From Patescibacteria group bacterium (GTDB lineage Bacteria; Patescibacteriota; Patescibacteriia; 2-12-FULL-60-25): DNA of 56,973 nt. Location: positions 1 through 56,973 of the forward strand of contig JAQULH010000003.1 in the NCBI GenBank assembly GCA_029004215.1, given 5' to 3'. Under the pieces are notes generated by a model, which saw only the letters and a program-made list of their open reading frames with translations, was not told the DNA's origin and did not search any database. How positions within the stretch are numbered: position 1 is the stretch's first letter; the number at the start of each line of letters is the position of its first letter. Made by a program: the position numbers and the translations under genes. Of this stretch, positions 34,747 through 54,700 are shown piece after piece.

Positions 34747-35511
34747 ATGAATATGATGTTCGATTTGTGTGTGCCGGCCCGCAACGAAGGGGCGACAATC
34801 CAAGATGCTTTGCGGCGGTTAACCAAGTCGCTTAGTGATTTGGGTATTGATTGGCAAATTACAGTGGCCATTAATGGGACAACTGACGATACGGTTCAAA
34901 AGATCAACGCATTCGAGCTTCGAGCTTCCCGCCCGCATCGCCAGCGAAGCGTGGCGGGCGCGGCGAGCTTCGAGATTCGAGCATTAGAACGTCCGGAAGC
35001 GGGTAAGGGTGCTGCCATTAGGCTCGCTGCCCAAAATTCGCAAGCAGATATTTTTGGTTTTATTGATGCTGACTTATCGGCTGACCCGGACATGATTGCA
35101 CCTATGGTCAAGAAAATATTGGATGGCCAAGCTGACGTTGTAATCGGATCGCGGCTGGCTGACACGAGGACAACTAACAGGAGCTGGCTGCGTACCATGT
35201 CATCGCAATTTTTCAATTTGATGTCCAGGTTAATTCTGGGTTTGAAAGTTAAAGATGCCCAATGCGGGCTAAAAGTCATGAATAGCCGGGCCAAAAATGT
35301 CCTGGTTAATTGCCAAGAGGAGGGATGGTTCCTTGATATTGAATTTTTGGCTAAGATGGCGCAAGATGGCTTTAAGGTCGTTGAGGTACCTGTCCCATGG
35401 ATAGAATTTCTCTATACCATGCGACAAAGCCAGGTCAGGATGTTCAAGGATGGCCTAGGCGCGATCAAGGCCATGTGGCGTATCAGACACCGACTCAAAA
35501 ACCATGTTTAA
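34747..35511 (+). CDS. GT2 glycosyltransferase with in-frame repeat insert
   Basis: 254 residues from ATG 34747; ATGs at 34753 and 34756 and GTG at 34735 are alternatives. MMFDLCVPARNEGATIQDAL starts the GT2 fold, FGFIDADLSADPDMIAPM (~101) carries the DxD, and AQCGLKVM is the later family block. Residues ~56-79 come from a palindrome flanked by heptamers (34914-34982), between the first two beta strands. Starts the + operon with the phosphoglycosyl transferase, whose ATG it overlaps. Confidence 0.85.
   Translation: MNMMFDLCVPARNEGATIQDALRRLTKSLSDLGIDWQITVAINGTTDDTVQKINAFELRASRPHRQRSVAGAASFEIRALERPEAGKGAAIRLAAQNSQADIFGFIDADLSADPDMIAPMVKKILDGQADVVIGSRLADTRTTNRSWLRTMSSQFFNLMSRLILGLKVKDAQCGLKVMNSRAKNVLVNCQEEGWFLDIEFLAKMAQDGFKVVEVPVPWIEFLYTMRQSQVRMFKDGLGAIKAMWRIRHRLKNHV
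34914..34982. repeat. palindromic element flanked by GAG[C/A]TTC heptamers
   Basis: GAGCTTC occurs twice at 34915-34928, then a palindromic core 34928-34964 (arms GCCCGC/GCGGGC and CGCCA/TGGCG), then GAGCTTC-GAGATTC at 34965-34978. The core matches 54658-54694 on the opposite strand with one mismatch in 37 bases. It is in frame within a GT2 gene. Confidence 0.85.
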
Positions 35512-36883
35512 CTTCCGCATCAGGGTAAAACAAATCCTTCTTTTGATGGGTGATTTTGTAGTTTTCCAATTGTCAGTGCCCATCATGCTGTTGCTGCGTT
35601 ACGGGCGGGTAACGGCTGAAAATTATGACCAGCACGCTTTCCCATTCCTAATCCTTTCTTTGCTTTGGCTGGTTGGGTTTTATGTGGCCGGGCTTTATGA
35701 CCTGCGCCTTTCAAGGGACACTTTAAAATTTTTCAGGACTTATTTCGAGGGTACGGTTGCCAACTTGCTGCTTTCGCTGGGATTCTTTTACTTGTTGCCA
35801 ATCTTTGGCATTACGCCGCGCACCAACCTTTTTCTTTTCGTGGCCATTGTTTTAGTCTTGGATTATATCTGGCGTTTAGGCTTTAACCGGTTGATTGCCA
35901 AAGGCCTTTTTAGGACACGGGTCTTGTTTGTAGGCACGCCCGAGGATGCCATTGGCGTAGATAATCTGATCCGCGAGACTGCGCCGGGTTTTGAGCTGAA
36001 GGCAGTTATCCAAACAGCGGCTGGCACGCGTTTTGATGATGGTTCGATAGTTTGGTATGCCTCACCTGATGCCATTAAAGACCTGGTCAATAAAAACTTG
36101 ATTGATACGATTGTCATTGGCCATAAGCCGGAAGAAGTTATTGGCTTGCAAGACGCTTTATACGAAACGATTTTTTCGGCAGTCACTTTGGTTGACCGCG
36201 CAACTTTTGAAGAGATAGCAACAGGCAGGATCCCGTTGGAACATATTTCACAAAGTTGGTTTTTGTCACACATTAGGGAAGGGGAGAAAGTGGCTTACGA
36301 AAGTGTTAAGCGTTTCTTTGATTTGCTGTCAGCCATTCCGATCGGCTTGGTGACCTTGGTCCTTTTTCCTTTTTTGGCCTTGCTTGTCAGGGTTAGCTCA
36401 CCCGGACCGATTTTGATAAGACAGAAGAGAGTTGGCTTAAAAGGAAGGATATTTACGCTCTATAAATTTCGTTCCATGCGCCAGGATGCAGAAGCTGACG
36501 GTCGGCCAAAATTAGCCTCTGACCAAAAGAATGATCCGCGAGTCACGCGCGTTGGCAAAATTTTGCGTGCCACCAGCCTCGATGAGTTGCCGCAGATTTG
36601 GAATATCTTGCGCGGTGACATGTCGGTTATTGGCCCGCGGCCTGAGCGGCCTGAGTTTGTGGAAGAACTGACGCGCCAAATGCCGTTTTATGCCTTGCGC
36701 CATCTGACCAGGCCCGGAGTAACGGGTTGGGCCCAGGTCAACTTCCGTTATGCTTCGTCTTTTGCCGATAACATCAAGAAGCTGCAATACGACCTGTATT
36801 ACATCAAGCATCGGTCGTTCATGCTGGATTTGTCCATTTTGCTTAAAACCATCCGCATTGTTTTGAGGCGAATCGGCATTTAG
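35504..36883 (+). CDS. polyprenyl glycosylphosphotransferase (initiating sugar transferase)
   Basis: 459 residues, WcaJ/WbaP architecture. Four to five N-terminal membrane helices (to ~125), a CoA-binding-like domain (~135-255) and a C-terminal bacterial sugar transferase domain from KRFFDLLSAIPIGLV (269). Catalytic pair D360-E361 in SLDELPQ and the PRP motif (GPRPERPEF, ~378-386) are intact. It transfers sugar-1-phosphate from a UDP-sugar to undecaprenyl phosphate and so starts the lipid-linked glycan the GT4s extend. Confidence 0.93.
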   Translation: MFNFRIRVKQILLLMGDFVVFQLSVPIMLLLRYGRVTAENYDQHAFPFLILSLLWLVGFYVAGLYDLRLSRDTLKFFRTYFEGTVANLLLSLGFFYLLPIFGITPRTNLFLFVAIVLVLDYIWRLGFNRLIAKGLFRTRVLFVGTPEDAIGVDNLIRETAPGFELKAVIQTAAGTRFDDGSIVWYASPDAIKDLVNKNLIDTIVIGHKPEEVIGLQDALYETIFSAVTLVDRATFEEIATGRIPLEHISQSWFLSHIREGEKVAYESVKRFFDLLSAIPIGLVTLVLFPFLALLVRVSSPGPILIRQKRVGLKGRIFTLYKFRSMRQDAEADGRPKLASDQKNDPRVTRVGKILRATSLDELPQIWNILRGDMSVIGPRPERPEFVEELTRQMPFYALRHLTRPGVTGWAQVNFRYASSFADNIKKLQYDLYYIKHRSFMLDLSILLKTIRIVLRRIGI

Positions 36884-36891
36884 CAGGATTA

Positions 36892-36920
36892 TCGACGGGA
36901 AGTGGCAATTGGGTTAACAT
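36892..36920 (+). promoter_or_regulatory. candidate leaderless promoter for the subtilase gene
   Basis: TCGACG (36892-36897), 17-base spacer, TAACAT (36915-36920), then only 6 bases to ATG 36927. Transcription would start at or next to the start codon; no Shine-Dalgarno is present. Confidence 0.55.
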
Positions 36921-36926
36921 ATTGGC

Positions 36927-38816
36927 ATGTCAAAAAGCTTTTTTGCCAGGCTTTGCCCGTTAGTTCTGGCAACCTTATTTTTTGCGCCGTCAGCGGCTTT
37001 GGCGGCTGATGTGACGCGCCTGGTGCCTAATGATACTTTTTATAACCATCAATGGTACATGGATTATATTAAGGCACCCGAGGCTTGGGCCAAGCCGCAA
37101 GTTACTTCGACGCGTGATGTGGTAGTAGCCATGGTAGATGCTGGAGTAGATTTTTCGCATCCTGATTTGCAGGGAGTCTTATGGACCAATCCAGACGAGA
37201 TTGCCAATGGCAAAGATGATGACAACGACGGCTTAGTGGACGATATCCATGGTTGGAATTATGTAACCAATTCACCGGATACGAGGCCAGTCGACAATGG
37301 AGTTATTATTGACAATGGGGCGTGGGAACATGGCACTGCTATTGCGTCTCTGATTGCCGGTCGAGGCAATAATGATATTGGCATGGCCGGTGTAGCCTGG
37401 AAGGCCAAAATCATGCCACTGGTCATCTTAGGATCTGATGGCTCTGGCGCTACTGACAGCTTAGCCAAAGCTATCCGTTACGCAGTTGACCATCGGGCAG
37501 ACATAATAAATCTAAGCTTGGAAGGAGACTCGGAAGACCCCGATGTTTCCCAGGCCATCAAAGAAGCAACTGCCAAAGGCGTCTTAGTGGTGGTGGCAGC
37601 CGGTAATGGCAACGGTGAAGGTAATAATTTGGATTTACAACCCCTTTATCCGTCGTGCCACACGGGTGCGGCCGGGCAGGGCATGTTGGTCGTATCAGCC
37701 ATCCAAGAAGATGGGTCACGCAACCCCTCCAGTAATTATGGCAGTTGCGTCAGTTTGGCTGCCCCGGGAGCAGACATTATGGCTGCACGGCCAACTTATG
37801 AAGCAAATGGCAACCGCAAGGATGTTTCTGGTTATGGCGTTTGGAGCGGTACTTCCATGGCCGCACCTTTGGTCAGCGGTTCGGCTGCAATGTTAAAAAT
37901 CCGACATCCTGGCTGGACAGGCGAACAATTAGCCCAGCGTCTTTTGGCAACTGCCCAACCTTTTACCAAAGGCATTGACCAGCAAGGCATGGGTCAGGGC
38001 GTTTTGGACGTTGCCTCGGCAGTGGCCCCGGCCTCTGATGAAAAATACGGGCCATGGAACTTATGGGCTTCCAACCCAGGGGCTTTACCCTCGGTCTGGA
38101 TAACCAGCCAGCAAGGAAAAGTCTTGTTTTCTTTTACTGCCGGTGATGCAACTGATAAGCGGGGATTACATGCGATTTTTGTCAGATGGGGTGATGACAG
38201 GCGGCCAAATATCCTAGTCACTTACCAAGGCGATGAGTCAGGCGCCTGGCGCCTTTACCGATGGGATGGAGTTCTGTTGTCCATGGGACAAGTGAGCCAA
38301 AACGCCCAAGACAAAATCCAAGGGGGTTTGTTGCTGGCCGCGCAGGATCTCAAAGCCCAAGCCAAAGAAATGGTACTTTTGACAGAAGCGACTGGGCCGC
38401 GGGCCTGGCGCTTTGAATCAACCACCAACCTGGGCAAGTCTTTCGTGACGACTCTGGATGAAAAGTCATATGGCTCAATGGCTGTCGGTATACAGCGTCC
38501 TATCCAAGCCATGACATTGTTGAGCAGGTCAATGCCGTATTCCTCATTGAGAGTCTTGCAGAGCCAGGGCATAGGTGAAGATGTTTCGGTAACCACCACC
38601 AGGCCATCTAACTTGAACATGGTTGAGGGGCAGACTGCTGACGGGCGCGAAGTCATCCGCTTGGTCCAAAGCGGCAAACCGACTTATTTGATTGAGCGCA
38701 AAGGCATGCTTGACGTGACTACTGATCCAATTGCTGTTGCCGAATGGCGCCAAGCCCCGCTGGGTTTGGAAAAACCCAACATGCCCGGAAAATTTTATGA
38801 CTTCTGGCCACGCTAA
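36927..38816 (+). CDS. secreted subtilisin-like serine protease (S8)
   Basis: 629 residues. A signal peptide (residues 1-27, likely cut after AALA). The catalytic triad is Asp71 (VAMVDAGVDFSHPD), His135 (EHGTAIASLIAG) and Ser310 (GTSMAAPLVSG). A Ca-binding-like loop KDDDNDGLVDD sits at 96-106. Residues ~380-629 form a C-terminal beta-rich domain of unknown function. It acts outside the membrane, maybe trimming surface proteins. It has its own promoter inside the glycan locus and overlaps gtrA by 20 bases. Confidence 0.93.
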   Translation: MSKSFFARLCPLVLATLFFAPSAALAADVTRLVPNDTFYNHQWYMDYIKAPEAWAKPQVTSTRDVVVAMVDAGVDFSHPDLQGVLWTNPDEIANGKDDDNDGLVDDIHGWNYVTNSPDTRPVDNGVIIDNGAWEHGTAIASLIAGRGNNDIGMAGVAWKAKIMPLVILGSDGSGATDSLAKAIRYAVDHRADIINLSLEGDSEDPDVSQAIKEATAKGVLVVVAAGNGNGEGNNLDLQPLYPSCHTGAAGQGMLVVSAIQEDGSRNPSSNYGSCVSLAAPGADIMAARPTYEANGNRKDVSGYGVWSGTSMAAPLVSGSAAMLKIRHPGWTGEQLAQRLLATAQPFTKGIDQQGMGQGVLDVASAVAPASDEKYGPWNLWASNPGALPSVWITSQQGKVLFSFTAGDATDKRGLHAIFVRWGDDRRPNILVTYQGDESGAWRLYRWDGVLLSMGQVSQNAQDKIQGGLLLAAQDLKAQAKEMVLLTEATGPRAWRFESTTNLGKSFVTTLDEKSYGSMAVGIQRPIQAMTLLSRSMPYSSLRVLQSQGIGEDVSVTTTRPSNLNMVEGQTADGREVIRLVQSGKPTYLIERKGMLDVTTDPIAVAEWRQAPLGLEKPNMPGKFYDFWPR

Positions 38817-39249
38817 GCTCCAAAAAGAAGTTTATAAATTGGCGAGGTTTGTGGTAGTCGGTGCCTCGACATTTTTATTACAAACAGCCTTGTACTTTAT
38901 TTTCTCGCGCTGGCTTTTTACTCATGTCCCGCACACGGTCTCGTACATTTTGGCACTGGTTTATTCCTTGGCCTATAATTATTCCTTAAACCGGCTTTGG
39001 ACCTTTGGCGACCAGTCTTCGGCCAAAGGTTCTGCCTGGCGTTATTCAGTGGTGGCAGTCACGGCCAGCGCCATCTGCGCCGTTCTCTTTTGGATCGGCC
39101 ACGATTTGCTTCACTTTTATGATCTTTATGTGGTCGTGATGGTTAATTTGCTCATTCCTTTCTATACTTTTGTGGCGCATCGCCTTTACACTTTTCATGA
39201 ACAGCCGCATCGCCATCTGCAGAAATTTGTAAGGTCAACGCCGCGTTAG
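38797..39249 (+). CDS. GtrA-family membrane protein
   Basis: 150 residues from ATG 38797 (an open frame upstream lies within the protease gene). Four membrane helices; FVVVGASTFLLQTALYFIFS (~18) and YNYSLNRLWTFG (~64) are GtrA landmarks. GtrA proteins are thought to flip or help transfer polyprenyl-phosphate sugars, together with GtrB-like GT2s such as the genes at 19508, 33808 and 41401. Confidence 0.9.
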   Translation: MTSGHAKLQKEVYKLARFVVVGASTFLLQTALYFIFSRWLFTHVPHTVSYILALVYSLAYNYSLNRLWTFGDQSSAKGSAWRYSVVAVTASAICAVLFWIGHDLLHFYDLYVVVMVNLLIPFYTFVAHRLYTFHEQPHRHLQKFVRSTPR

Positions 39250-39250
39250 G

Positions 39251-39256
39251 TATAAT
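39251..39256 (+). promoter_or_regulatory. -10 box TATAAT that fixes the start of the next gene
   Basis: Consensus TATAAT with TTGTAA 18 bases upstream (39227-39232). The first in-frame ATG (39255) overlaps this box and cannot be in the transcript; ATG 39267, 10 bases downstream, fits. No Shine-Dalgarno. Confidence 0.65.
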
Positions 39257-39266
39257 GCCAACTAAT

Positions 39267-40280
39267 ATGGGGGAGAAACAACATTTCGAAAGAAAAAACA
39301 TTTTGGTAACCGGTGGAGCCGGTTTCATTGGTTCTCATTTGTGCGACCGCCTGGTTAAAGAGGCAAATGTCATCTGCTTGGATAACTTTATCACCAGTTC
39401 GGTCGCCAATATCGACCATTTGTTGCGCGAACCGCACTTTGAATTCATAAACCATGACATCACGCAACCATTGGAACTTGGCAGGTATAAGGAACTCGAA
39501 AGGTTCAAGATCCCTTACCAGGGCATCCAAGAGATTTACCACCTGGCCTGCCCGATTTCCAAGCACCATTTTGATGATTATAAGATAGCCACCGTCTTGA
39601 CCAATTCGGTTGGCGTGAAAAATATTTTGGATTTGGCGGTCGCCAATCGTTCAAAAGTCCTTTATGCCTCATCCAGCATGCTTTATGGCAATCGGCTGGA
39701 AAAAGGGCGCAGCGTCAAAGAAACGGATGAATGCCATTTGAACCATTTGACCACGCGCGGCGCCTACGACGAAGGCAAGCGTTTTTCAGAAGCTATCTTG
39801 CAGACTTATGCCGATGTTTATGGCTTGGATGTCAAAATCGCCCGCATCTTCCGCACTTATGGCCCGCGCATGAAGATTTTTGACGGCAATTTGATACCAG
39901 ACATAGTCTTGAACGCTTTGGACAACAAGGATATTGTCATTGCGGGCAATGAAGAGACAATGGTCACCCTCTGTAGCGTCAAAGATACGGTGGATGGCTT
40001 GATGAAGCTCATGTCCTCGCCCCTGGAAATCACCTTGGTCAATCTGGGTTCTGACCACGAAGTGCGTTTGGTTAGCGTGGCTCAAAAGATCTTGCACATT
40101 ACCGGCTCAAGTTCGCGCGTGCGTTTTGATGCGCAGGCTCCCCAGTACTTCGAAGCCGGTTTGCCCGATATTTCACGCGCCAAGGACCTGCTGGGCTGGG
40201 TGCCGCTTGTCAGGCTGGATGACGGCTTAAAGGAAATGGTTGATTACGCCAATTCCCACAAGAACCAAATAACTTTTTGA
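39267..40280 (+). CDS. NAD-dependent SDR epimerase/decarboxylase, UXS1-like
   Basis: 337 residues from ATG 39267. NAD-binding VTGGAGFIGSHLCDRL (~14-29). The active site holds YASSSMLYG and the Tyr-Lys pair in GAYDEGKRFSEA. ARIFRTYGPRMKIFDGNLIP and the following VTLCSVKDTVDGL resemble UDP-glucuronate decarboxylases, which make UDP-xylose; another UDP-sugar epimerase/dehydratase reaction is possible. Tandem paralogue of the next gene, 4 bases apart. Confidence 0.85.
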   Translation: MGEKQHFERKNILVTGGAGFIGSHLCDRLVKEANVICLDNFITSSVANIDHLLREPHFEFINHDITQPLELGRYKELERFKIPYQGIQEIYHLACPISKHHFDDYKIATVLTNSVGVKNILDLAVANRSKVLYASSSMLYGNRLEKGRSVKETDECHLNHLTTRGAYDEGKRFSEAILQTYADVYGLDVKIARIFRTYGPRMKIFDGNLIPDIVLNALDNKDIVIAGNEETMVTLCSVKDTVDGLMKLMSSPLEITLVNLGSDHEVRLVSVAQKILHITGSSSRVRFDAQAPQYFEAGLPDISRAKDLLGWVPLVRLDDGLKEMVDYANSHKNQITF

Positions 40281-40284
40281 TTAT

Positions 40285-41367
40285 ATGCCTCCTATTTACG
40301 ACAAGAAGAACATCCTGGTGTCCGGCGGAGCCGGTTTTATCGGGTCACATTTATGCGAAAGGCTTTTGGCCGACGGAGCAAGGGTCATTTGCGTAGACAA
40401 CCTGATTTCCTCGTCGCTTAGTAACATCGAGTTTTTGCTCAAGAACCCGGATTTTGAGTTTATCCGCCAAGACATCAGCGCTAACTTTGATTTGGAACAG
40501 TATCCTGAGTTAGAACGGTTCAAAATTAAGTTCCAGGGCATTCAGGAAATTTACCATCTAGCTTGCCCCATGAACCCCAAGGCATTCGAGCAAACGAGGA
40601 TGCAAACTTTGTACGCCAATAGTTTGGGCATGAAGAATATGCTGGACATGGCTCTGCGTTATCGCGCCAAGTTTTTGCATACCTCGACTTCCACGGTCTA
40701 CGGCCCTCGCCCCCAGGACAACCATCTGATCAAAGAAAGCGAACCGGGTTGCGTGGACGCGCTCTCGCCACGCGCCTGCTACGACGAAGGTAAGCGTTAT
40801 GCTGAAACTTTTTGCAGCACTTACCAGGCCGTACATGGTTTGGATGTCAAAATCGCGCGTATCTTCCGCACTTATGGCCCACGCGAGCGCTTGTTTTCCG
40901 GTGAGATGATCCCGGATTTTATCCTCAACGCTTTGGATAACAAAGATATCGAGATTTTTGGCGATGAGACATTCAGCAGCTCGCTTTGTTATGTGACTGA
41001 CATTGTGGATGGCTTGGTCAAACTCATGGGTTGGGAAGGGGAGATTGGACCGGTTAATTTGGGCAGTGATTTGGATATGCCAATCTTAGATGTTGTGCAA
41101 AATATTTTGGAAATGACCGGATCAACCAGCCGTATCGTGTTCCAACCGACTTTGATGTTCGTGACGCCGCTTGGACTGCCTGACCTTACCAAGGCCAAGG
41201 AAAAATTGGGTTGGATGCCATTGGTCAGGTTGGATGAAGGCTTGAAGCGCATCATTGATTACACCATGGCTCACAAGAACCTGTTGATAGCGGCTTTTAA
41301 TGCCAGTGTCCGCGCGCCAGCCACACCCACAGCCAAAATCCCACCATCTCCCGGACCGCAGGTCTAG
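40285..41367 (+). CDS. NAD-dependent SDR epimerase/decarboxylase, UXS1-like
   Basis: 360 residues. VSGGAGFIGSHLCERLLADG (~13), TSTSTVYGPR (~131) and SPRACYDEGKRYAETF (~155), the last very like UDP-glucuronate decarboxylase, then ARIFRTYGPRERLFSGEMIP. It matches the preceding gene along its whole length except for a Pro/Ala-rich 25-residue tail. The pair is a tandem duplication that has diverged, perhaps for different UDP-sugars. Confidence 0.87.
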   Translation: MPPIYDKKNILVSGGAGFIGSHLCERLLADGARVICVDNLISSSLSNIEFLLKNPDFEFIRQDISANFDLEQYPELERFKIKFQGIQEIYHLACPMNPKAFEQTRMQTLYANSLGMKNMLDMALRYRAKFLHTSTSTVYGPRPQDNHLIKESEPGCVDALSPRACYDEGKRYAETFCSTYQAVHGLDVKIARIFRTYGPRERLFSGEMIPDFILNALDNKDIEIFGDETFSSSLCYVTDIVDGLVKLMGWEGEIGPVNLGSDLDMPILDVVQNILEMTGSTSRIVFQPTLMFVTPLGLPDLTKAKEKLGWMPLVRLDEGLKRIIDYTMAHKNLLIAAFNASVRAPATPTAKIPPSPGPQV

Positions 41368-43562: not shown

Positions 43563-44768
43563 ATGAAAGTCGTCCATGTTTGCTGCATTGCGCCACCGGA
43601 AAGCGGGGGCATGGGAGCCGTGGCTTACCAAGAAGTTTTGAATTTACGCAAACTTGGAGTTGATGCAGTCTTAGTCGTACCAGAGTTACCGGGTCGTCAT
43701 GCTGAACTCGTTTCAGCATCTCCCGAAGCAATAAGGGCAGAGATCCCGAAACAAGTTCGGGATGACAAAGGTATCATCCGTCTGCCTGCCATGCGCATTG
43801 GCAATGTGGCTCGTTTGAGCGGGTTGGACGAGATTATCAAAGACGCTGATGTTGTCCATTTACATTATCCTTTTTATTTTACAGCCGGGATGATTGCGCG
43901 GTGGCGCAGGCAAAATAAAATCAAACATTTGGCAATAACTTTGCACATGGATGCGACTGATAAAGGTTGGCGTTGGTTAGCGGCCGAGCTACATCGCAAG
44001 CTTTTTCAAAAGCGAGTTTTGGACGCAGCTGATTTGCTTTTAGTCTCTACTTTGGATTATGCCCAACATTCCTCGTTTGCGCCGTGGGTCAATAGCTCGC
44101 GTTTGCATGAATTGCCTTTTGGCGTAGACACAAACGTGTTTCGCCCGATCCCCCTTGCGTCCCCCTTACAAAAGGGGGAGTTCCAAGTTGGCATGGTCGG
44201 TGTCATGGATCGAGCCCATCCATTCAAAGGAGTTGATGTTTTGCTGCGGGCTGTTGCCAAACTTCCATCAAACGTCCATGTCAAGCTGGTAGGTGATGGT
44301 GACCGTCGAAAAGACTACGAGAAGCTGGCTAAAGAGCTTGGTTTGAATGAGCGAGCTCACTTCGTCGGACGCTTGGAGCAAGGGAAACTGGTTGAAGCTT
44401 TGCAGAGTATGGATGTTTTTGCTTTTCCAAGCACCAGCGGAGCTGAAGCCTTTGGTCTTGCTATGTTGGAAGCTATGGCTTGCGGTGTGCCAGTTGTAGC
44501 CAGCGATTTGCCTGGTGTCAGGGCTGTTGCCAAAGATGCCGGCCTAATCGTTGCCGTAAATAATCCTGATGCCTTGGCAGACGGCCTGCGCCGCTTGCTG
44601 GACCTGCCCGCCGGAGCCTCGGCGAAGGAGGGCGATCCAGCAACCCGCCACAGCTTTGCTTTGGCGGCGCGGGACAAGGCTTTGCGCTACAATTGGGATA
44701 ACCATGCGCAAACTTTACTTAAGTACTATCAACAGATCCCCTCAGCTCCCCTTACAAAGGGGAGGTAA
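43563..44768 (+). CDS. GT4-family glycosyltransferase carrying several in-frame repeats
   Basis: 401 residues. GT-B fold with VCCIAPPESGGMGAVAYQEV, GMVGVMDRAHPFKGVDVLLR (~208) and EX7E in SGAEAFGLAMLEAMACGVPV (~297). Four palindromic elements are translated in frame: residues ~45-68 (43696-43766), ~195-207 (44146-44184), ~349-368 (44607-44667) and the C-terminal ~10 (44738-44764). All lie outside the core motifs, so the enzyme may still be active. Confidence 0.87.
   Translation: MKVVHVCCIAPPESGGMGAVAYQEVLNLRKLGVDAVLVVPELPGRHAELVSASPEAIRAEIPKQVRDDKGIIRLPAMRIGNVARLSGLDEIIKDADVVHLHYPFYFTAGMIARWRRQNKIKHLAITLHMDATDKGWRWLAAELHRKLFQKRVLDAADLLLVSTLDYAQHSSFAPWVNSSRLHELPFGVDTNVFRPIPLASPLQKGEFQVGMVGVMDRAHPFKGVDVLLRAVAKLPSNVHVKLVGDGDRRKDYEKLAKELGLNERAHFVGRLEQGKLVEALQSMDVFAFPSTSGAEAFGLAMLEAMACGVPVVASDLPGVRAVAKDAGLIVAVNNPDALADGLRRLLDLPAGASAKEGDPATRHSFALAARDKALRYNWDNHAQTLLKYYQQIPSAPLTKGR
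43696..43766. repeat. double-hairpin palindromic element inside a GT4 gene
   Basis: Ends GTCAT (43696) and ATGAC (to 43766). Inner hairpins TGCTGAA/TTCAGCA and TCCCGAA/TTCGGGA, with ATCTC/GAGAT between them. Read in frame it gives HAELVSAS...PKQVRDD, a peptide signature of this dispersed repeat in many genomes. Confidence 0.85.
44146..44184. repeat. CCCCCTT-hairpin element inside a GT4 gene
   Basis: CCCCCTT (44161-44167), loop ACAA, AAGGGGG (44172-44178), translated as part of IPLASPLQKGEFQ. A related copy is at 44738-44764 in the same gene. Confidence 0.7.
44607..44667. repeat. GC-rich palindromic insert inside a GT4 gene
   Basis: Two adjoining units: an imperfect palindrome CCCGCCGGAGCC...GAAGGAGGGC, then CCGCCA (44645-44650) with TGGCGG (44662-44667) and an inner AGC/GCT. 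Translated as LPAGASAKEGDP...HSFALA. The first resembles the common CCGCC...AAGGCGG dispersed repeat, so it is called with moderate confidence. Confidence 0.55.
44738..44764. repeat. CTCCCCTT-hairpin element at a GT4 gene end
   Basis: CTCCCCTT (44746-44753), loop ACA, AAGGGGAG (44757-44764); it codes the last residues (IPSAPLTKGR) and the stop codon follows at once. A relative of the element at 44146-44184. Confidence 0.7.
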
Positions 44769-44776
44769 GACAGCAT

Positions 44777-45925
44777 ATGAGAGTTGCCATCTTAACTAAT
44801 GCTTTTCCGCCCTTGTCCCGCGGCGGCGCAGGCCGAATTGCCGAGATGCAAGCTGATTGGCTGACGCGCCATGGCCACGAGGTGAAAGTTTGGGTGCCGG
44901 CGCCTTTCCCAACAGACGAAGGCCGCGATATTGTTGAATCTTTCTTGCCGCGGACAACCATCCCATTTTCCAAACTCTCAAAAACTTTTGCCCCAATGCG
45001 CTTGCTTTTCCATATGGAAGATTTGGCGCCAAACCTCAAGGCTGTTGACCAGATCCGCGCTTGGAAGCCGGATGTCTTGCTTACGCACAATCTCACCGGA
45101 TGCGGTTGGGGCACGCCCCGCATGCTCAGGGCCTCAGGCGTCCGTTGGTTGCATGTGCTGCATGATGTGCAGATGTTCGAGCCTTCGGGGCAGGTCATGT
45201 ATCGCGAGACATATAACTCGCTACGACAAGCTTGGAGAAAGTTTTGGGCTAAACACCGTGCAAAAACCTTTGGCATACCGGACGCTGTCATTAGCCCATC
45301 TCAGTGGTTGCTTGATGCGCACCGTAAGTATGGTCTGCTAGCCAATACTTTTGCCCAAGTTCTGCCAAACCCAATCGAGATCCCGCGCGGGTTTTGCGAA
45401 AATCAAATAACCGAGCAGATTAAAGTGGTTTATAATGCCAGGCTATCAGAAGATAAAGGCATCTTGGTTTTACTCGACGCTTGGCAATCTCTAAATCCGA
45501 GGCCAGGACGTCTCGAGTTAATAAGCGGCGGCCCATTGCTTGCTAAGATCAAAAAGTTAGAAGATCCGTCAATCGTTGTCCACGGCCAATTGCCGCATGA
45601 AGAAGCCATGATAGCTATGTCCGGGGCTAATTTGTTTGTCATGCCGTCTATTATCATGGAAAACCAGCCAACAGTTCTTTTGGAAGCTGTGGCCGCTGGC
45701 ATCAATGTCGTTGCTTCTGACGTAGGTGGCGTGCGTGAACTACTGCAAGGCTACGGCACAATCGTCCCGCCCGGCGACGCCCCAGCTCTGGCCAAAGCCA
45801 TCCAACAAACCCTCAAAGAGCAAATTAACACCCAAATCCGCGACCAGATTTTGGCGAGGCATAACTTTGACACGGTGATGGGGGAATTGGTGAAGGGGAT
45901 GGTCCCTAATGTCATTCCCGCGTAG
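44777..45925 (+). CDS. GT4-family glycosyltransferase
   Basis: 382 residues. N-terminal TNAFPPLSRGGAGRIAEMQA, VLHDVQMFEPSGQ (~126), donor domain VVYNARLSEDKGILVLLDAW (~217), MPSIIMENQPTVLLEAVAAG (EX7E, ~295). The terminal residues VIPA and the TAG stop lie inside a palindromic repeat (45911-45933), so the natural end of the protein was probably altered by that insertion. Last gene of the glycan locus before the accessory island. Confidence 0.9.
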   Translation: MRVAILTNAFPPLSRGGAGRIAEMQADWLTRHGHEVKVWVPAPFPTDEGRDIVESFLPRTTIPFSKLSKTFAPMRLLFHMEDLAPNLKAVDQIRAWKPDVLLTHNLTGCGWGTPRMLRASGVRWLHVLHDVQMFEPSGQVMYRETYNSLRQAWRKFWAKHRAKTFGIPDAVISPSQWLLDAHRKYGLLANTFAQVLPNPIEIPRGFCENQITEQIKVVYNARLSEDKGILVLLDAWQSLNPRPGRLELISGGPLLAKIKKLEDPSIVVHGQLPHEEAMIAMSGANLFVMPSIIMENQPTVLLEAVAAGINVVASDVGGVRELLQGYGTIVPPGDAPALAKAIQQTLKEQINTQIRDQILARHNFDTVMGELVKGMVPNVIPA

Positions 45926-45933
45926 GCGGGAAT
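45911..45933. repeat. palindrome that supplies a stop codon
   Basis: ATTCCCGC (45914-45921), loop GTAG, GCGGGAAT (45926-45933). The loop contains the TAG stop of the upstream GT4 gene. It marks the left edge of the accessory island. An A-run, not a T-run, follows on the + strand. Confidence 0.75.
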
Positions 45934-48175: not shown

Positions 48176-48176
48176 A

Positions 48177-48230
48177 TTATTTCTTTTCTGTATCCACTTC
48201 TTTTGGCTCAGGTTTCGTCAAATCAGCCAC
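48177..48230 (-). pseudogene. remnant of the 3' end of a copy of the 48840 membrane-protein gene
   Basis: 54 bases on the - strand code VADLTKPEPKEVDTEKK plus stop; the intact gene ends VFDLTKPEPKEVDTEKK. Compared with 48840-48893, six codons differ and five of the changes are synonymous. So this is a diverged homologue's tail that once was under protein selection, not a recent copy. Nothing of the gene upstream remains. Confidence 0.85.
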
Positions 48231-48285
48231 TTATCCTCTTGACATGAAAGCAGATTTATGGGACGTGTTAATGATGGGTTAAATT

Positions 48286-48714
48286 ATGAAAGTTTACAAA
48301 ACAAAAGCCAGAAAATTTTCCGGATCAGATTTTCATGAAGTCAATCAAAAGGCCTCCAGTTTGTATTCGACTATTAAAAAGAGATCAAAACGTCGGGCTT
48401 ACATCCGGTCGGCGTATTTTAAGAAAGACAAGATTTTTCTTGATTTGTTCTGGAGTCACTTATTCGAGAAACAGAACTGGCGTGACAGGGTGCGACGCAT
48501 AAAGTATTTTGGTTGCGCAATTGAGCTTATTAATCATTCACGTTTTGAGCCAAAGTCAAAAGAGAATCACAATCAACCATCCGAAATACTGCATCGTTTT
48601 TATGGTATTACGGCAGATGATGAATTGTTCTGCGCGCAAATTAAAGAATATAAAAAGAATGGCCAGAAGTTTTTGATCTCAGTTTTTCCTACAGACGGAC
48701 CAACGGACACGTAA
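48286..48714 (+). CDS. orphan basic protein of unknown function
   Basis: 142 residues, very rich in Lys and Arg. The C-terminal block FYGITADDELFCAQIKEYKK...KFLISVFP reads like the beta-sheet core of a small nuclease- or RelE-like toxin fold, but this is only a resemblance. N-terminal half (KRRAYIRSAYFKKDKIFLDL) is also basic. It sits alone between the gene remnant and the membrane-protein gene, so it may be a mobile cargo gene. No antitoxin partner is visible beside it. Confidence 0.65.
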   Translation: MKVYKTKARKFSGSDFHEVNQKASSLYSTIKKRSKRRAYIRSAYFKKDKIFLDLFWSHLFEKQNWRDRVRRIKYFGCAIELINHSRFEPKSKENHNQPSEILHRFYGITADDELFCAQIKEYKKNGQKFLISVFPTDGPTDT

Positions 48715-48839
48715 TACAGAAAAAGACTTTCCGCTATGTGTGGTGTATAAACCACGGCCGAAAGCCTTTCTCTGCAATTAGGTTATCATGTTTAGTAAAA
48801 ATGTCAAGCATGAGCGATCTCTCAATTGTTGATAAAACG

Positions 48840-50981
48840 TTATTTCTTTTCTGTATCCACTTCTTTAGGCTCCGGCTTGGTCAGATCAAACACGTAAATA
48901 TTTACTTTGCCATTATCGATTGACCAGGAAGCTTGGGCAATGTCTGTTATGCGTTGGTTGAGCTCTGTAGCTTTCCACCAGTAATCATTAATGACCACAA
49001 AGACGAGGTCAGATTTTCCGAGCTTGGCAGCATCGCGCACAGTGTCCCACGAAGGATCTTCGTAAGTCATTTTGAGATAGGTGGTGTAAAGCGCACCGCC
49101 GGTGGGGATGGGATAGAAAAAGACGTCACCCGCGTAGCGCTTGAAACCAAACTCTTTGACAGCTGCGGCTGAAACGCTTTGGTCAGCCAGCACAGTGTAA
49201 TCTTTGCCCTTGGCATAACGGTCAATCCAACGCACGGCCTCAACATCATCTCCACTGGTGCTCCAACCGCGGCTGGGCTGGACTGCATCATGGCGCGGCA
49301 AAGCATTGTAAGCATTGGCTGCTCCGATTGAGCAAAAGAGGATAATGGCCACGGCCGAAGCCAGGGGCATGGCAGTCTTTACTTTTTTGAAAAGCCAACC
49401 CATGGCCGGCAAGCCGCCGACCAACAAGACTAAAACAGCAATCTGCCAAAGGCGTTGGGCATAGTCACCTTTTTCGTATTGGATCAGCATGGTGAAATCG
49501 CTGGCATTTTCCAAGAGCCCTGAAGCCAGCCAAAGCGAGACAGCCCCAATGAGCAGGATGATAATGGCCAGGCGATCATTGCCTTTGAGGATGATGATGC
49601 TCGCCACACAGGCCAACAAACCCATGGCCGGCAAAGCAATGCCAATTAAAGATGACCAAGCAGGCCACAAGACATATTTATTGCCCAGCCATGGCACGAG
49701 TTTTGCCAGATTATCTATCCAAGCTGAAAATTGAGTGACATTTGCCAAGTTCCAATCAATGGCCAATGAAGAGTGGTATTGGCTGGCAACATAAAAAATA
49801 ATCGGGATGGCCAGGCCGGAAAAAATCGCCACAATCCAAGATGTATGTTTAATCCATTTTTTGCGGTCACCCAAGATTAACAAAGCCAAAACCAAAATGC
49901 TCAAAGGCACGCCAGCCAAAGGATGGATGGCCACGCTCCAGGCAGCCAGCCACAAAGGCGCACTGAACTGCAAAGTTTTTTGGCGCGCGCCCAAAGCCAG
50001 GACAACGGCCGAAATTCCAATGACAGTGGCCAAGCCTTGGGGAGTGGTGGCTACGAACATGCCTAACGGAAAGAGAGCTAAAGCGGCGGCAGCAGTGCCA
50101 AACCAATTTTCGCGCCTGAAAGCCAAGAAGACACAGGTTGGCAAGATAATGGAAGCCAAAATTGGAACAAGCCAGCGATCAATATCTGCCAAAGGCAATT
50201 CTGTCATGCGGGCCAGCCAAGTCGTGAAAACGTATTGTCCAATATAGTAAAAAGGTTTTGGGCTTAAGGTTCCGGTCTTGAGCATGACTTGTTCACCGGC
50301 CAAATGCAGGAAACCATCAAAGCCATATCCCAGGCGATAAATTATCGGCGCCAGGCTGAGCGTGCCAATAATCGACAGGCCGCTTTGGAAAGCCGTGAAG
50401 CCGGAGGATTGGATAAAGATGGCGGCAAAAATAGCCAGTGCCCAAAGCAAACCAATGGCAGCCAAAGTCCCGCTTGGCAACAAAGGCCAAGGTGTGCGGA
50501 TGCTTTGCAAAGTTTGGGCTGCCCAGGCGCTTTGCAGCACAAAAGTTAAAGCCATTATGCCGGCACAAGCAATGGCAATGGCCATGAGCTGTTTCTTGTG
50601 CGTCCAGTTGGCTGTTTCTTCGTCTTGCATTGGCCCGTCAGTCAACTGCCTTTCGTGGCCCAAGCCAACCAGATGGGCGATAGTCATGGTGATGGCCAAT
50701 GACCAAGCATCGGAAAGCCCGCTTAAAGGGCCGTCAGCATAAAACCACACGGTTTGGATTACGCTCTGCGTGGCCACCAACATCAACAAACCAAAAGCTG
50801 ACGAGGTTGCCCAGTGGCGCTCTGGCAAAACATTTTTTCCGAAAACATAAGCATGGAAAAGAATGGCAAAAGTCCAGAAAAACGGCTTGGCATACCCTAT
50901 GTCCAGCTTTAAGTATTGCAGTCCCAAGATGATAATGACAAAAACAATACCTGCCAAAGCGTCTAATGTTCTTTCATTCAT
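48840..50981 (-). CDS. large polytopic membrane protein, GT-C glycosyltransferase-like
   Basis: 713 residues, 14 or more membrane helices and a soluble C-terminal domain (~from 560). Acidic loop GYGFDGFLHLAGEQV (~218) follows early helices, the usual GT-C arrangement. The C-terminal tail is Lys/Glu-rich (KPEPKEVDTEKK). Same broad class as the genes at 26809-32124 but not a close copy. A remnant of its 3' end lies at 48177. Confidence 0.75.
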   Translation of the reverse strand: MNERTLDALAGIVFVIIILGLQYLKLDIGYAKPFFWTFAILFHAYVFGKNVLPERHWATSSAFGLLMLVATQSVIQTVWFYADGPLSGLSDAWSLAITMTIAHLVGLGHERQLTDGPMQDEETANWTHKKQLMAIAIACAGIMALTFVLQSAWAAQTLQSIRTPWPLLPSGTLAAIGLLWALAIFAAIFIQSSGFTAFQSGLSIIGTLSLAPIIYRLGYGFDGFLHLAGEQVMLKTGTLSPKPFYYIGQYVFTTWLARMTELPLADIDRWLVPILASIILPTCVFLAFRRENWFGTAAAALALFPLGMFVATTPQGLATVIGISAVVLALGARQKTLQFSAPLWLAAWSVAIHPLAGVPLSILVLALLILGDRKKWIKHTSWIVAIFSGLAIPIIFYVASQYHSSLAIDWNLANVTQFSAWIDNLAKLVPWLGNKYVLWPAWSSLIGIALPAMGLLACVASIIILKGNDRLAIIILLIGAVSLWLASGLLENASDFTMLIQYEKGDYAQRLWQIAVLVLLVGGLPAMGWLFKKVKTAMPLASAVAIILFCSIGAANAYNALPRHDAVQPSRGWSTSGDDVEAVRWIDRYAKGKDYTVLADQSVSAAAVKEFGFKRYAGDVFFYPIPTGGALYTTYLKMTYEDPSWDTVRDAAKLGKSDLVFVVINDYWWKATELNQRITDIAQASWSIDNGKVNIYVFDLTKPEPKEVDTEKK

Positions 50982-50989
50982 ACAACTAA

Positions 50990-51057
50990 GTCCATAAAGT
51001 TTGTAAAGTCTATAAAGTCCTTAAAGTCTTTTTACTGGTCACTAGTTACTAGTTACT
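50990..51057. repeat. tandem 9-mer and 7-mer repeats in an intergenic gap
   Basis: Four 9-base units GTYYNTAAA (50990-51025: GTCCATAAA, GTTTGTAAA, GTCTATAAA, GTCCTTAAA) plus a partial fifth, then ACTAGTT twice (51041-51054) and ACT. It separates divergent genes, so it may carry the promoters of both. Confidence 0.8.
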
Positions 51058-51090
51058 GTGTTTTATGTTAGCATGAATACTTGTAGATGT

Positions 51091-51690
51091 ATGATCACGC
51101 TCACCAGCAAGACATTAATGACTAATGAAACAGTTGTTCTTTGCCGTCATGATCGTGTCTTAGCCAAGATATTGCTGCCAATCATACCGGCTTGGATTAA
51201 ACCCAACCATATTACAGTCTTGCGGTTTTTTCTCATACCCCCTGTAGCTTACCTGACTTGGACCGAAAATTGGAATATCCTAATTCCCTTGTTTTTATTT
51301 GCCGGTTTTACAGACCTGCTGGACGGTACCTTGGCCAGGGTGCGTAAACAAATCACTCTTTGGGGCACGATTGCTGACCCGGCGGCAGACAAATTGTTAA
51401 TCGGCTCAGTGGCCGTCCTTTTTTTGGCCCAAATAAGTTTTTTACTGGCTTTCATTTTAGTCTTTTTGGAAGTACTCATCGTCTTAGGCGCTTACTCACG
51501 CAAGAGGCGCGGCGAATATATCAGCGCTAATTGGTCAGGAAAGATGAAGATGTTCCTGCAGGTTATTGGCTTGGCTTTCTTGTTTCTTGCCAAATTCGGG
51601 TTGGCTGATTATTTGGATACGATAGGCATTGGTATATTAGTGACGTCTTTGGGTTTTGCAGTGCTTTCATTACTGACTTACGGATTATAA
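51091..51690 (+). CDS. CDP-alcohol phosphatidyltransferase
   Basis: 199 residues from ATG 51091; ATG 51073 and GTG 51058 are in frame, and ATG 51118 is also possible. The CDP-alcohol signature DGTLARVRKQITLWGTIADP (D-G-x2-A-R-x8-G-x3-D-x3-D) is complete, with D-P-A-A-D-K after it. Six or so membrane helices. It would make a phospholipid head group (for example phosphatidylglycerol-phosphate, PgsA-like) from CDP-diacylglycerol. A TAGCAT/TATGTT -10-like stretch at 51064-51074 favours the later starts. Confidence 0.9.
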   Translation: MITLTSKTLMTNETVVLCRHDRVLAKILLPIIPAWIKPNHITVLRFFLIPPVAYLTWTENWNILIPLFLFAGFTDLLDGTLARVRKQITLWGTIADPAADKLLIGSVAVLFLAQISFLLAFILVFLEVLIVLGAYSRKRRGEYISANWSGKMKMFLQVIGLAFLFLAKFGLADYLDTIGIGILVTSLGFAVLSLLTYGL

Positions 51691-51698
51691 AAGAAAAG

Positions 51699-51716
51699 CA
51701 GACCCGTGTGGGTCTG
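51699..51716 (-). terminator. rho-independent terminator of the lipoprotein gene
   Basis: Stem CAGACCC/GGGTCTG with a 4-base loop; on the - strand CTTTTCTTTT follows. It lies 33 bases behind the stop codon of the gene at 51750-52496. The + strand has no T-run. Confidence 0.75.
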
Positions 51717-51749
51717 GCAGGAGATTGGTCGCCGCTCGGAAGAGGGCGA

Positions 51750-52496
51750 TTATTTGGATGGGGACTTACTGGCCTTGTCAGCCTCGCAAGCCCAGGTGTT
51801 CCACTTGGCGTTGATCTTCTTGGTGTGCTGGCCTTCGGGGCAGACGCACGGCGGCTTCTCGGGGTTCTTCTGGTCCGCTTCCTCGGTCAGGCACTCGATG
51901 CCAGCGCCCACGCATTGCTGCTGGATGGCCTGCTCGGTGCGATGACCCTGGTGCTCGATGACCATGAAGTAGTCACGCTGGGCCACGCCGTTGCGGCACT
52001 CGTAGTGCACGTCCTTGGCAAAGATGGCTTGCTGCACCGGCACGGGCGCTGACTTGGCAGTCGGCGGAACCGGGGGCACAGCGCTGGCCGAAGGCAGGGG
52101 CAGGGGAGGCAGCGAAGCGACCGGAGCCAGCGCGTTGGTCACGACCGGCGGCGGCAATGCGACGTTGCTGGACTCCTGGCCAACCGGCTCCTCGAAGACC
52201 GGGAAGTTGGGGGGGCAGTAGCTGCCGGGGTCTGATCCAACGAGCACTGCGTTGTACCAGATGTACTGGCGGTTGTTCTGGGTGCAGCTGCACTTGACTG
52301 CCAGGAGCTGCGACCCGCCGTTCATCAGGTTTTCGCGTGCGGGCTGCTGGCCCTGGCACGCGGCCGGGAGCGACGGGGCAGCCTGCGATGACCCGGCAAG
52401 AGTGGTCTCGACTCCGGGGGTGCGCTGCCTGTCGACGCAGCTGGCTGCGATCAGTGAAACGAACACGAGAACGAACGATGCGACGAAATTTCTCAC
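51750..52496 (-). CDS. high-GC Pro/Cys-rich probable lipoprotein
   Basis: 248 residues from GTG 52496, preceded by AAGGAGG. N-terminal hydrophobic stretch with a likely lipobox (LIAASC, Cys20); the -3 residue Ala is weak. Two Cys-rich parts (CSCTQNNRQYIWYN and CRNG...CVGAGIECL...CVCPEGQH...WNTWACEAD) flank a Pro-rich linker (~115-160). The Cys patterns look like a secreted disulfide fold; no family recognised. Third codon positions are mostly G or C, unlike its neighbours. It has its own promoter and terminator. Confidence 0.8.
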   Translation of the reverse strand: MRNFVASFVLVFVSLIAASCVDRQRTPGVETTLAGSSQAAPSLPAACQGQQPARENLMNGGSQLLAVKCSCTQNNRQYIWYNAVLVGSDPGSYCPPNFPVFEEPVGQESSNVALPPPVVTNALAPVASLPPLPLPSASAVPPVPPTAKSAPVPVQQAIFAKDVHYECRNGVAQRDYFMVIEHQGHRTEQAIQQQCVGAGIECLTEEADQKNPEKPPCVCPEGQHTKKINAKWNTWACEADKASKSPSK

Positions 52497-52565
52497 GGGA
52501 CGCCTCCTTGAAAGACTTTGGTAAACTGAGTTTGGCCCGGCTTAGGCAAAAGCCTGGGATGTGTC

Positions 52566-52594
52566 AACTTAGCAGAGAACTCGCGTTTAGTCAA
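52566..52594 (-). promoter_or_regulatory. promoter of the lipoprotein gene
   Basis: On the - strand TTGACT (52594-52589), 17 bases, TAAGTT (52571-52566), giving a leader of about 60 bases with AAGGAGG before GTG 52496. An overlapping TTGACA (52567-52562) with TAAGCC 17 bases later is a second option. A small hairpin GGCTT/AAGCC lies in the leader. Confidence 0.55.
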
Positions 52595-52600
52595 GACCTC

Positions 52601-52609
52601 TGCTACAAT
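52601..52609 (+). promoter_or_regulatory. extended -10 promoter of the Mur ligase gene
   Basis: TGCTACAAT is an extended -10 (TGN-TACAAT); 11 bases then ATG 52621. No recognisable -35. Short or no leader and no Shine-Dalgarno; it is divergent from the lipoprotein promoter. Confidence 0.55.
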
Positions 52610-52620
52610 TTTTAGAACTT

Positions 52621-53988
52621 ATGTTACATCAGATGAAAAAGCTGGTTCCAAACGCCTGGTTGGACATCTATCATAGATTTTTAGCTAAAATATCAGCTTT
52701 TTTGTATGGCCACCCTTCGGAAAAGCTGATTGTCATCGGGGTTACGGGCACAAACGGAAAGACAACGACGGCCTATTTAATTGCCAAAGCCTTGGAGGCT
52801 GAAGGGGCTAAAACAGGTTGTGCCACCTCAGCTTTGTTCAAAGTGGCTGATCGCGAGTGGCTAAACGAGACAAAAATGACCATGTTAGGTCGCTTTGGTT
52901 TGCAGAAACTTTTAAAGCAAATGGTTGATGCCGGATGCAAATATGCTGTTATCGAAACTTCATCGCAAGGTATCTTGCAACATCGCCATGAACAAGTGGC
53001 TTATGACATCGGAGTGTTCACGAACTTGACGCCCGAGCACATCGAAGCCCACGGCGGTTTTGAAAATTATAAGCAAACAAAAATTAAATTGTTTAAGCAC
53101 ATCGTCGAGCTGCCTCTCAAGGTCATAGACTGGCAAAGGGTCCCGCACGCCGTTGTCTTGAACCGTGATGATGAACACGCAGCAGATTTTGCCGTGCCCG
53201 GCATGCAAGAAGTTGTTTGGTATGGTTTGGGGCAGGGCAGTGATGTCAAAGCTGAGAATATCCAAGAGTCAACCAGTGGAGTTACGTTCCAAGTTGATAA
53301 GATGGAGGTCAAGCTCAATCTCATGGGTCGCGTTAACGTCTACAATGCTCTGCCTGCTTTGGCAGTAGCTAAAATACTTAGGGTTGATTTGCCTCAGGCC
53401 ATAGCAAGACTCAGTGAGATAAAAAATATGCCAGGCCGTTTTGAGCGCATTGAGGAAGGCCAGCCTTGGCAAGTGATTGTGGATTACGCACCTGAGCCTG
53501 CATCACTGAGTAAATTATACGAGACAGTCAAAGTTTTCGAACCGAAGCGTATCATCCATGTCTTAGGTTCTTGCGGTGGTGGGCGAGATGTTGCCCGGCG
53601 TCCGATATTGGGGAGCATGGCCGCCCAAAACTCGCAGATAGTCATCGTGACCAATGAAGACCCATATGACGATGACCCGATGCAGATTATGGAACAGGTG
53701 GCTGAAGGGGCCAGGCACCCGGCTCGAATCTCGAATCTCGAATCTCGAATCTCGGGAACCGGACATGAAAAGAAAGACGGTCAGGATTTGTTTTTGATTT
53801 TAGACCGCAGGCAAGCTATCCAGAAGGCTATGGACTTGACCCAGGCGGGCGATTTGGTGATTCTGACCGGCAAAGGCAGTGAGCAGCGCATTTGCGTGGC
53901 CAATGGCAAGAAGCTGCCTTGGGACGAACGCGAAGCTGCCAGGCAGGCCATTAGGCAGACCATTGCCGAACGAACACAAAGGGCTTAA
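52621..53988 (+). CDS. murE: MurE-like UDP-MurNAc-peptide ligase, no N-terminal domain
   Basis: 455 residues. The P-loop GTNGKTTT is already at 43-50, whereas full MurE has ~100 residues before it, so the N-terminal UDP-binding domain is missing. TNLTPEHIEAHGGFENYKQTK (~139) and ATP/peptide motifs match MurE. The usual DYAHTP is DYAPEP and the DNPR motif for meso-diaminopimelate is replaced by NEDPYDDDP, so the amino acid it adds is uncertain. Residues ~368-378 come from four tandem heptamers. Peptidoglycan stem-peptide synthesis in the cytoplasm. Confidence 0.85.
   Translation: MLHQMKKLVPNAWLDIYHRFLAKISAFLYGHPSEKLIVIGVTGTNGKTTTAYLIAKALEAEGAKTGCATSALFKVADREWLNETKMTMLGRFGLQKLLKQMVDAGCKYAVIETSSQGILQHRHEQVAYDIGVFTNLTPEHIEAHGGFENYKQTKIKLFKHIVELPLKVIDWQRVPHAVVLNRDDEHAADFAVPGMQEVVWYGLGQGSDVKAENIQESTSGVTFQVDKMEVKLNLMGRVNVYNALPALAVAKILRVDLPQAIARLSEIKNMPGRFERIEEGQPWQVIVDYAPEPASLSKLYETVKVFEPKRIIHVLGSCGGGRDVARRPILGSMAAQNSQIVIVTNEDPYDDDPMQIMEQVAEGARHPARISNLESRISGTGHEKKDGQDLFLILDRRQAIQKAMDLTQAGDLVILTGKGSEQRICVANGKKLPWDEREAARQAIRQTIAERTQRA
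53724..53751. repeat. tandem heptamer TCGAATC x4 inside the Mur ligase gene
   Basis: Four perfect units of TCGAATC followed by TCGGG. The complement GAGATTC (rotated) is the heptamer seen at 4633 and 34965-34978. The frame is preserved (ARISNLESRIS). Confidence 0.8.
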
Positions 53989-53991
53989 ACT
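53963..53991 (+). promoter_or_regulatory. candidate leaderless promoter of the PH-domain gene
   Basis: TTGCCG (53963-53968), 17-base spacer, TAAACT (53986-53991), 7 bases to ATG 53999. It overlaps the end of the Mur ligase gene. Confidence 0.45.
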
Positions 53992-53998
53992 GTGGTGT

Positions 53999-54700
53999 AT
54001 GTTTCGACTTGAATCTGTCCTGCAACTCAAAGATGAAGAGGCGATCCGCGCCATGATACGGCGGCATATACTGACCTTGGTCGGTCCTTTATTGTTGGCC
54101 ATGCTGTTTATCGTGGCACCTTTCTTTTTCCTTTTCCCGCTTTTCAGCTTAGGCATATTCGGCGTCCTGGTTTTCAGCATCTTAATCATTGTTGGCATTG
54201 TCTTGGCTTTTAGGACGCTTTTTGTCTGGGATGCTGATGTCTTGATAATTACCAATTCCAGGGTGGTGGATGTTGACCAGAAAGGCTTGTTCTCCCGCCA
54301 TGTGGGTGAAGCCACGCTTAATTCCATCCAAGATGTTTCATGGCATAAGGAGGGTTTTTGGCAAACCTTGTTTCGGATGGGCACCGTTAAGATCCAAACT
54401 GCCGGGGCAGCTGCCGTGATTGAGGCCGATAATATTTCAAAACCAGAAAAAGTCCATGAACTAATCAACGAAGTAAGGCAAGAGTCGCCACGCACGCCTG
54501 ACGCTTCGACGCCGGTTGAAAAAGACCGTAGGTCGCGGATTAGGCATATCGCCGTCTTATTGGAAGAGGCGGATGATGCTAAAGTCATTGAAGTCGAAGC
54601 CATGCTGGAAAAACAAGCCCGCGACAAAGCAGTCCAAACTCTTTTTAGTCCTAAAACGCCGCGCCCGCCAAGCTTCGCTGGCGATGCGGGCGGGTCCTAA
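53999..54700 (+). CDS. membrane protein with bacterial PH-like domain
   Basis: 233 residues from ATG 53999 (an upstream open frame overlaps the Mur ligase gene). Two membrane helices (~26-47, ~51-70) followed by a bPH2-like domain with VLIITNSRVVDVDQKGLFSR (~81) and SIQDVSWHKEGFWQTLF. The C-terminal ~14 residues (PRPPSFAGDAGGS) are from a palindromic repeat (54658-54694). Found between cell-wall and division genes; role unknown. Confidence 0.8.
   Translation: MFRLESVLQLKDEEAIRAMIRRHILTLVGPLLLAMLFIVAPFFFLFPLFSLGIFGVLVFSILIIVGIVLAFRTLFVWDADVLIITNSRVVDVDQKGLFSRHVGEATLNSIQDVSWHKEGFWQTLFRMGTVKIQTAGAAAVIEADNISKPEKVHELINEVRQESPRTPDASTPVEKDRRSRIRHIAVLLEEADDAKVIEVEAMLEKQARDKAVQTLFSPKTPRPPSFAGDAGGS
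54658..54694. repeat. palindromic element, second copy of the 34928 core
   Basis: Inverse orientation of 34928-34964, 36 of 37 bases identical. Arms CGCCA/TGGCG and CCCGC/GCGGG. It codes the C-terminus of the PH-domain protein in a different frame from the other copy. Confidence 0.9.

Follow-up and report, generated by a model that had tools for sequence, protein, structure and literature searches.

We found a 36-nt palindrome that is read in frame within several unrelated proteins of a member of the Patescibacteria (CPR). We consider it, with a probability of about 0.78, to be a non-autonomous, untagged REP-like dispersed element of this lineage, which inserts as a precise unit 5' of YG and is tolerated by its host. 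Two copies lie in the window, i.e. the whole stretch of 56,973 nucleotides that was analysed. The window belongs to contig C3 of a genome of 1.195 Mb (65 contigs, 95.6% complete), which like all other genomes used here is a MAG, and some of the coding calls rest on open reading frames and Pfam matches only. The features concerned are the following:

34735..35511, forward strand: host gene 1, encoding a family 2 glycosyltransferase (GT2; PF00535, 7.3e-21)
34911..34982, forward strand: array of TTCGAGC-type words, ATTCGAGCTTCGAGCTT ^ CGAGCTTCGAGATTCGAGC, split by copy 1 (flanks rich in direct repeats once joined, p = 0.001)
34928..34963, forward strand: copy 1 of the palindrome, 36 nt, CCCGCCCGCATCGCCAGCGAAGCGTGGCGGGCGCGG, read in the frame of the GT2 gene (model score 65 bits)
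53999..54700, forward strand: host gene 2, encoding a bPH_2 domain protein (PF03703, 2.9e-8) with 12 residues gained at the C-terminus
54659..54694, reverse strand: copy 2 of the palindrome, 36 nt, in frame and a single codon ahead of the stop in the PH-domain gene

The two copies matched in inverted orientation in 37 of 38 bases (34928-34965 on the forward strand, 54657-54694 on the reverse strand; BLAST E 2.4e-12), which extends the 36 of 37 bases noticed in an earlier reading of the sequence alone. The element proper comprises 36 nt, its ends being set by an uninserted orthologue, and the target dinucleotide is CG for both copies (34964-34965 and 54657-54658, respectively). It is an imperfect palindrome with outer arms CCCGCCCGC / GCGGGCGCGG enclosing an inner stem. 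Its fold energy was only about 1-2 sd below that of shuffled sequences, and no known RNA families were detected in the window. A central C-GNA-G or C-GNRA-G motif was present in 23 of 29 variants on one strand and in 7 on the other, compared to 4.2 in shuffles. Sequences of the GCGAAGC type form very stable DNA mini-hairpins; we treat such a GNA loop as a hint only, as minimum-energy folds mostly bypass the motif and the variants are related.

As the sequence-only reading had proposed, one copy lies inside the GT2 gene, and the copies are translated in different frames (as ASRPHRQRSVAGAAS and PRPPSFAGDAGG) because they are read from opposite strands of the element. Its further claim that the other copy forms the C-terminus of the PH protein had to be revised: comparison with orthologues showed that the element entered a single codon ahead of the ancestral stop and left that stop in place. 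The longest open reading frame of this gene starts at 53879, but the ATG at 53999, where most orthologue alignments begin, is the likelier start. The protein was matched in 9 of 9 genomes of the genus, its own included. In the GT2 protein the element encodes residues ~64-77, between a predicted helix (53-64) and a predicted strand (79-86). The AlphaFold2 model had a mean pLDDT of 84 and fell below 50 at residues 67-74, and an insert in such a predicted low-confidence loop agrees with the idea that the host protein tolerates it. Once joined, the flanks of the GT2 copy formed an unbroken array of TTCGAGC words; this array is a second, in-frame repeat that copy 1 used as a landing site. Nearby, two divergent glycosyltransferase genes have between them an inverted repeat (34644-34728) made up of perfect 23-bp arms and a 39-bp spacer.

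The element proved to be dispersed beyond the two copies first seen. An exact-pattern search allowing 3 mismatches recovered 3 copies only, and a covariance model, trained on seven copies, was needed for the rest; it gave eight in the genome (C3:34928, C3:54657, C19:3132, C19:11067, C25:13408, C1:65223, C14:11875 and C9:39564). Six of the eight are in frame within recognisable genes, namely those for GT2, bPH_2, a Memo-like protein, a Wzy_C ligase, DNA polymerase I and an IleRS-like protein, the latter label denoting a class I tRNA synthetase with the copy in its N-terminal region.

Orthologues without the insert, on which the sequence-only reading had staked its case, do exist. In the PH gene the closest relative (G031) differs by exactly 36 nt (AACG^TCCTAA), in frame and with the old stop retained, and the insert is also absent in G033, G034 and G028. 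The Memo-like gene showed a 36-nt difference at ATCA^AAGG relative to G031. For the IleRS-like gene, seven species of the same genus lack the insert according to protein alignment, five of them with a 36-nt gap at the DNA level, and the insertion site (CGT^CCGG) is a non-repeat target. The gene for IMS, a Y-family polymerase, is filled in G029 and empty in G030, with 36 nt at GGA^CG. None of these four DNA-level empty sites (0/4) showed a target duplication, and the dinucleotide next to the element (CG, TG, CC, CG) is part of the target and not of the element. The GT2 insert was absent from orthologues in G031, G033, G034 and G030, and orthologues of Wzy and PolA also lacked the element; as the GT2, PolA and Wzy sites are variable linkers, the exact insert was here deduced from the flanks and not from a clean empty site. 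G031 carries a copy of its own in a staphylococcal-nuclease-like (SNase-like) gene, of which G000 is free, in a surrounding N-terminal region that has diverged. Because of these filled and empty pairs, including the SNase-like copy gained in G031, the insertions are lineage-specific gains. Of the earlier description as 'active, self-spreading', recent spread is thus upheld by lineage-specific insertions, whereas activity is not, no transposase being linked to the element. At locus L110, the IMS linker filled by the element in G029 holds a different in-frame repeat, PPHSPLSGGSSETSPSLTREGFGVG, in G035, so that one linker has received two repeat families.

The two bases 3' of the element were YG, mostly CG, at 30 of 42 sites against a background of 12.4% (p = 1e-18). 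Sites often lay in other repeats, i.e. arrays of TTCGAGC, ACGTAGG, AAGCTAC, TTAACTTTGAAC or TTCGTAAT words and GTCATTCC..GGAATC or CCCCCTT..AAGGGGG hairpins. Repeat-rich flanks at p<0.05 were found for 9 of 42 sites (binomial p = 2e-4), an excess that is real but moderate. Inverted flanks were significant at few sites, and targeting of palindrome centres is not claimed. In Komeilibacteria G359 and in G007, some non-coding copies occupy the tip of a larger repeat of the GTCAT..GGAAT type, and these may have been spread along with it.

Other repeats are likewise found in open reading frames of the window. A hairpin of the CGTC-REP type, GTCATCCCGAAC..TTTCGGGAT, lies in frame (HAELVSASPEAIRAEIPKQVRDD) at ~43650-43766, near the N-terminus of a 401-aa ORF (43563-44768, forward strand), which also contains CCCCCTTACAAAAGGGGG-type hairpins in frame at 44161-44178 and at its end (44748-44762). 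Another CGTC-REP-like hairpin, GTCATTCCCGCGTAGGCGGGAA (45911-45932), provides the final codons and the stop of a 382-aa ORF (44777-45925), and a GTCATTCCGAGG-type palindrome at 786-867 makes up the C-terminal end of a 270-aa ORF at 70-882. In the Mur ligase gene (52621-53988, forward strand) an array of ATTCGAG words at 53728-53750 is read in frame (ISNLESRI). G031 has this array too but G033 and G034 do not, and it is therefore an older in-frame insertion.

At least five of the six frames of the element are in use, encoding e.g. SRPHRQRSVAGAA, PARIASESVAGR, PPASQAIALRAG, PRPPSFAGDAGG or GAAPAIATLRRCGR. Coding copies measured 36 or 39 nt and all copies 36-45 nt, so that 12-13 residues are added to the host protein. 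Element variants have a GC content of 69-83% and most are open in all six frames. Shuffled sequences were open in all six frames in 18-67% of cases, corresponding to about 5 of 13 variants expected with 8 observed, and composition alone thus explains most of this openness. A length divisible by three was seen in 11 of 11 coding and 17 of 27 non-coding copies (p = 0.018), a comparison for which the ends of three elements were adjusted by eye and which is only modest because the copies are related. Purifying selection on host genes, by which frame-breaking copies are purged, explains the lengths of the coding copies. The earlier suggestion of an element 'selected to leave frames open' is thus supported only in part: GC content predicts much of the openness, and the lengths of the coding copies, all multiples of three, are explained by selection on the host genes.

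Across the class (ABY1, provided that Komeilibacteria are correctly placed there as is usual), the element was found patchily in 25 of 381 genomes from 20 genera. Copy numbers reached 13 in one Komeilibacteria genome and ~15 in G007 at a looser threshold, and named matches were Candidatus Komeilibacteria JAPLWL01 and a record named 'Patescibacteria group bacterium'. Related copies in other lineages are located in genes for LeuRS, MiaB-type and CCA-adding enzymes, with the LeuRS and MiaB-type copies (other families) in frame, as are those in the SNase-like and Y-family polymerase genes; the LeuRS of T. thermophilus has a gap at the position of the insert. Pattern matches in Rhodospirillales, Skermania and Pseudolabrys were excluded, as they resemble what chance would give in genomes rich in GC. 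In the open-access literature searched, we found no relevant report on REPs or palindromic repeats in CPR/Patescibacteria.

According to the reading that we prefer, the element would insert as one precise unit 5' of YG, without target duplication and often within other repeats. It would spread as a hairpin that is single-stranded or being replicated, through a putative recombinase acting in trans or through template switching during replication or repair. Selection would remove insertions that break frames or disrupt protein cores, and the added peptide would probably be near-neutral. Owing to its high GC content, the scarcity of stops in all six frames and a length that is mostly divisible by three, the element would leave a working gene when it lands in linkers, loops, termini or older repeats. 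The lack of duplication together with the preferred dinucleotide and the hairpin form makes single-strand transposition attractive. However, the genome of the window gave no match to a Y1 transposase (PF01797), none of 47 sampled Y1 loci had an element within 1.5 kb, and co-occurrence was not significant. We therefore favour a putative enzyme acting in trans, and template switching comes close behind it.

Spread without any transposase, the hairpin being copied by replication slippage, template switching or repair of single-stranded DNA with the help of repeats at the target, might account for the many sites in tandem words or REP hairpins, and the absence of duplications and of a linked enzyme as well as the very short length agree with it. 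We nevertheless regard it as rather unlikely, since the precise 36-nt ends in the non-repeat IleRS-like target and the strong YG preference look enzyme-guided rather than driven by microhomology. HUH chemistry results in oriented insertion at a target without duplication. A palindrome in fixed orientation to YG and without duplication is what this chemistry predicts, and REP mobilisation by a dedicated RAYT/IS200-IS605 (Y1 HUH) transposase nicking a single-stranded hairpin would also fit the PF01797 matches in 17 of 25 element-bearing genomes. We consider such a dedicated RAYT unlikely: the class background is 203 of 381 genomes (p = 0.09), four genomes with element copies (that of the window, G031, G034 and G035) lack PF01797, the sampled Y1 loci are without the element, and the element is without a GTAG tag. 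Still less probable is that larger CGTC-type REPs (GTCATTCC..GGAATC) are the mobile unit, of which the 36 nt are just the tip and without which they do not move. Copies in Komeilibacteria, several in G007 and those of C25, Wzy and C2 of G034 do lie inside such repeats, but the PH, Memo-like, IleRS-like and IMS insertions consist of 36 nt alone, and these four empty-site pairs contradict it. Short and compositionally extreme as the element is, its origin as chance or convergent GC-rich coding sequence with no mobile element is refuted by the identity of the two window copies, by the eight genome copies including intergenic ones and by clean presence and absence among orthologues.

These results extend protein-coding palindromes, known chiefly in Rickettsia and in some bacteria rich in REPs, to the CPR, a group of ultra-small uncultured bacteria in which core genes for DNA polymerase I, tRNA synthetases and a Y-family polymerase have been hit. 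The exact 36-nt presence/absence pairs represent unusually clean footprints, with which the movement of palindromes that lack a transposase becomes directly testable. They also caution against taking a 12-residue insert of a CPR protein for a functional feature, since it can be a recent addition at the DNA level. Tentatively, CPR bacteria might host self-spreading, frame-preserving DNA words, with an untagged 36-nt palindrome whose lineages were selected for lengths divisible by three and stop-free frames, which moves by a single-strand mechanism at YG and nests in other in-frame repeats. If this were true, one repeat after another would settle in the linkers of core enzymes, and new protein sequence would arise there.

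Among known systems, Rickettsia palindromic elements (RPE; Ogata/Claverie) are palindromic, dispersed and in frame in unrelated conserved genes, which tolerate the inserts (PMC10969869, PMC2229807, PMC3733652). The element shares this behaviour, with the same palindrome in frame in several unrelated conserved proteins, but with 36 nt (36-45 overall) it is much shorter than classical RPE of the RPE-1 type (~100-150 bp), differs in sequence and phylum, and shows clean empty sites without duplication and a YG target, while target duplication for RPE is given as unknown (PMC2229807). Intragenic MITE-like repeats of enterobacteria and Neisseria (ERIC/RU-1 and the 107-bp Correia elements) have ~100-170 bp, terminal inverted repeats and target-site duplications (PMC2229807); they resemble the element in being open in a reading frame and fused in frame with host genes, but its four DNA-level empty sites lack such duplications. 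GTAG REPs and REPtrons, which have an unpaired GTAG tag at one end and a RAYT (Y1) gene that copies usually flank, are likewise short dispersed hairpins that are sometimes intragenic; unlike these, neither end of the element carries GTAG, its genome holds no RAYT and the sampled Y1 loci are not flanked by it. The CGTC-tagged REPs described by Di Nocera and colleagues in 2013, which include RPE-4 and RPE-6, are hairpins of 20-40 bp that are partly intragenic, including in genes for DNA polymerase I, tRNA synthetases and repair functions, have no dedicated transposase and can be nested in other palindromes (PMC3733652). The short hairpin, the intragenic copies in DNA polymerase I and tRNA synthetases and the lack of a dedicated transposase are common to both, and GTCATTCC..GGAATC repeats resembling CGTC REPs, some with the element inserted, occur in the same genome. 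The element itself differs from CGTC REPs in that its ends (CCCGCCCGC / GCGGGCGCGG, GCGGGCAGG or GCGGGCGGG) show no unpaired CGTC, TGTC or CCTC tag, its stem does not start with AT and its outer arms consist of G and C only. It thus behaves like RPE and intragenic REPs but is by its tags outside the GTAG and CGTC superfamilies, and it agrees with untagged REP-like palindromes, i.e. dispersed imperfect hairpins of 20-40 bp without a terminal tag, a few variants reaching 45 nt.
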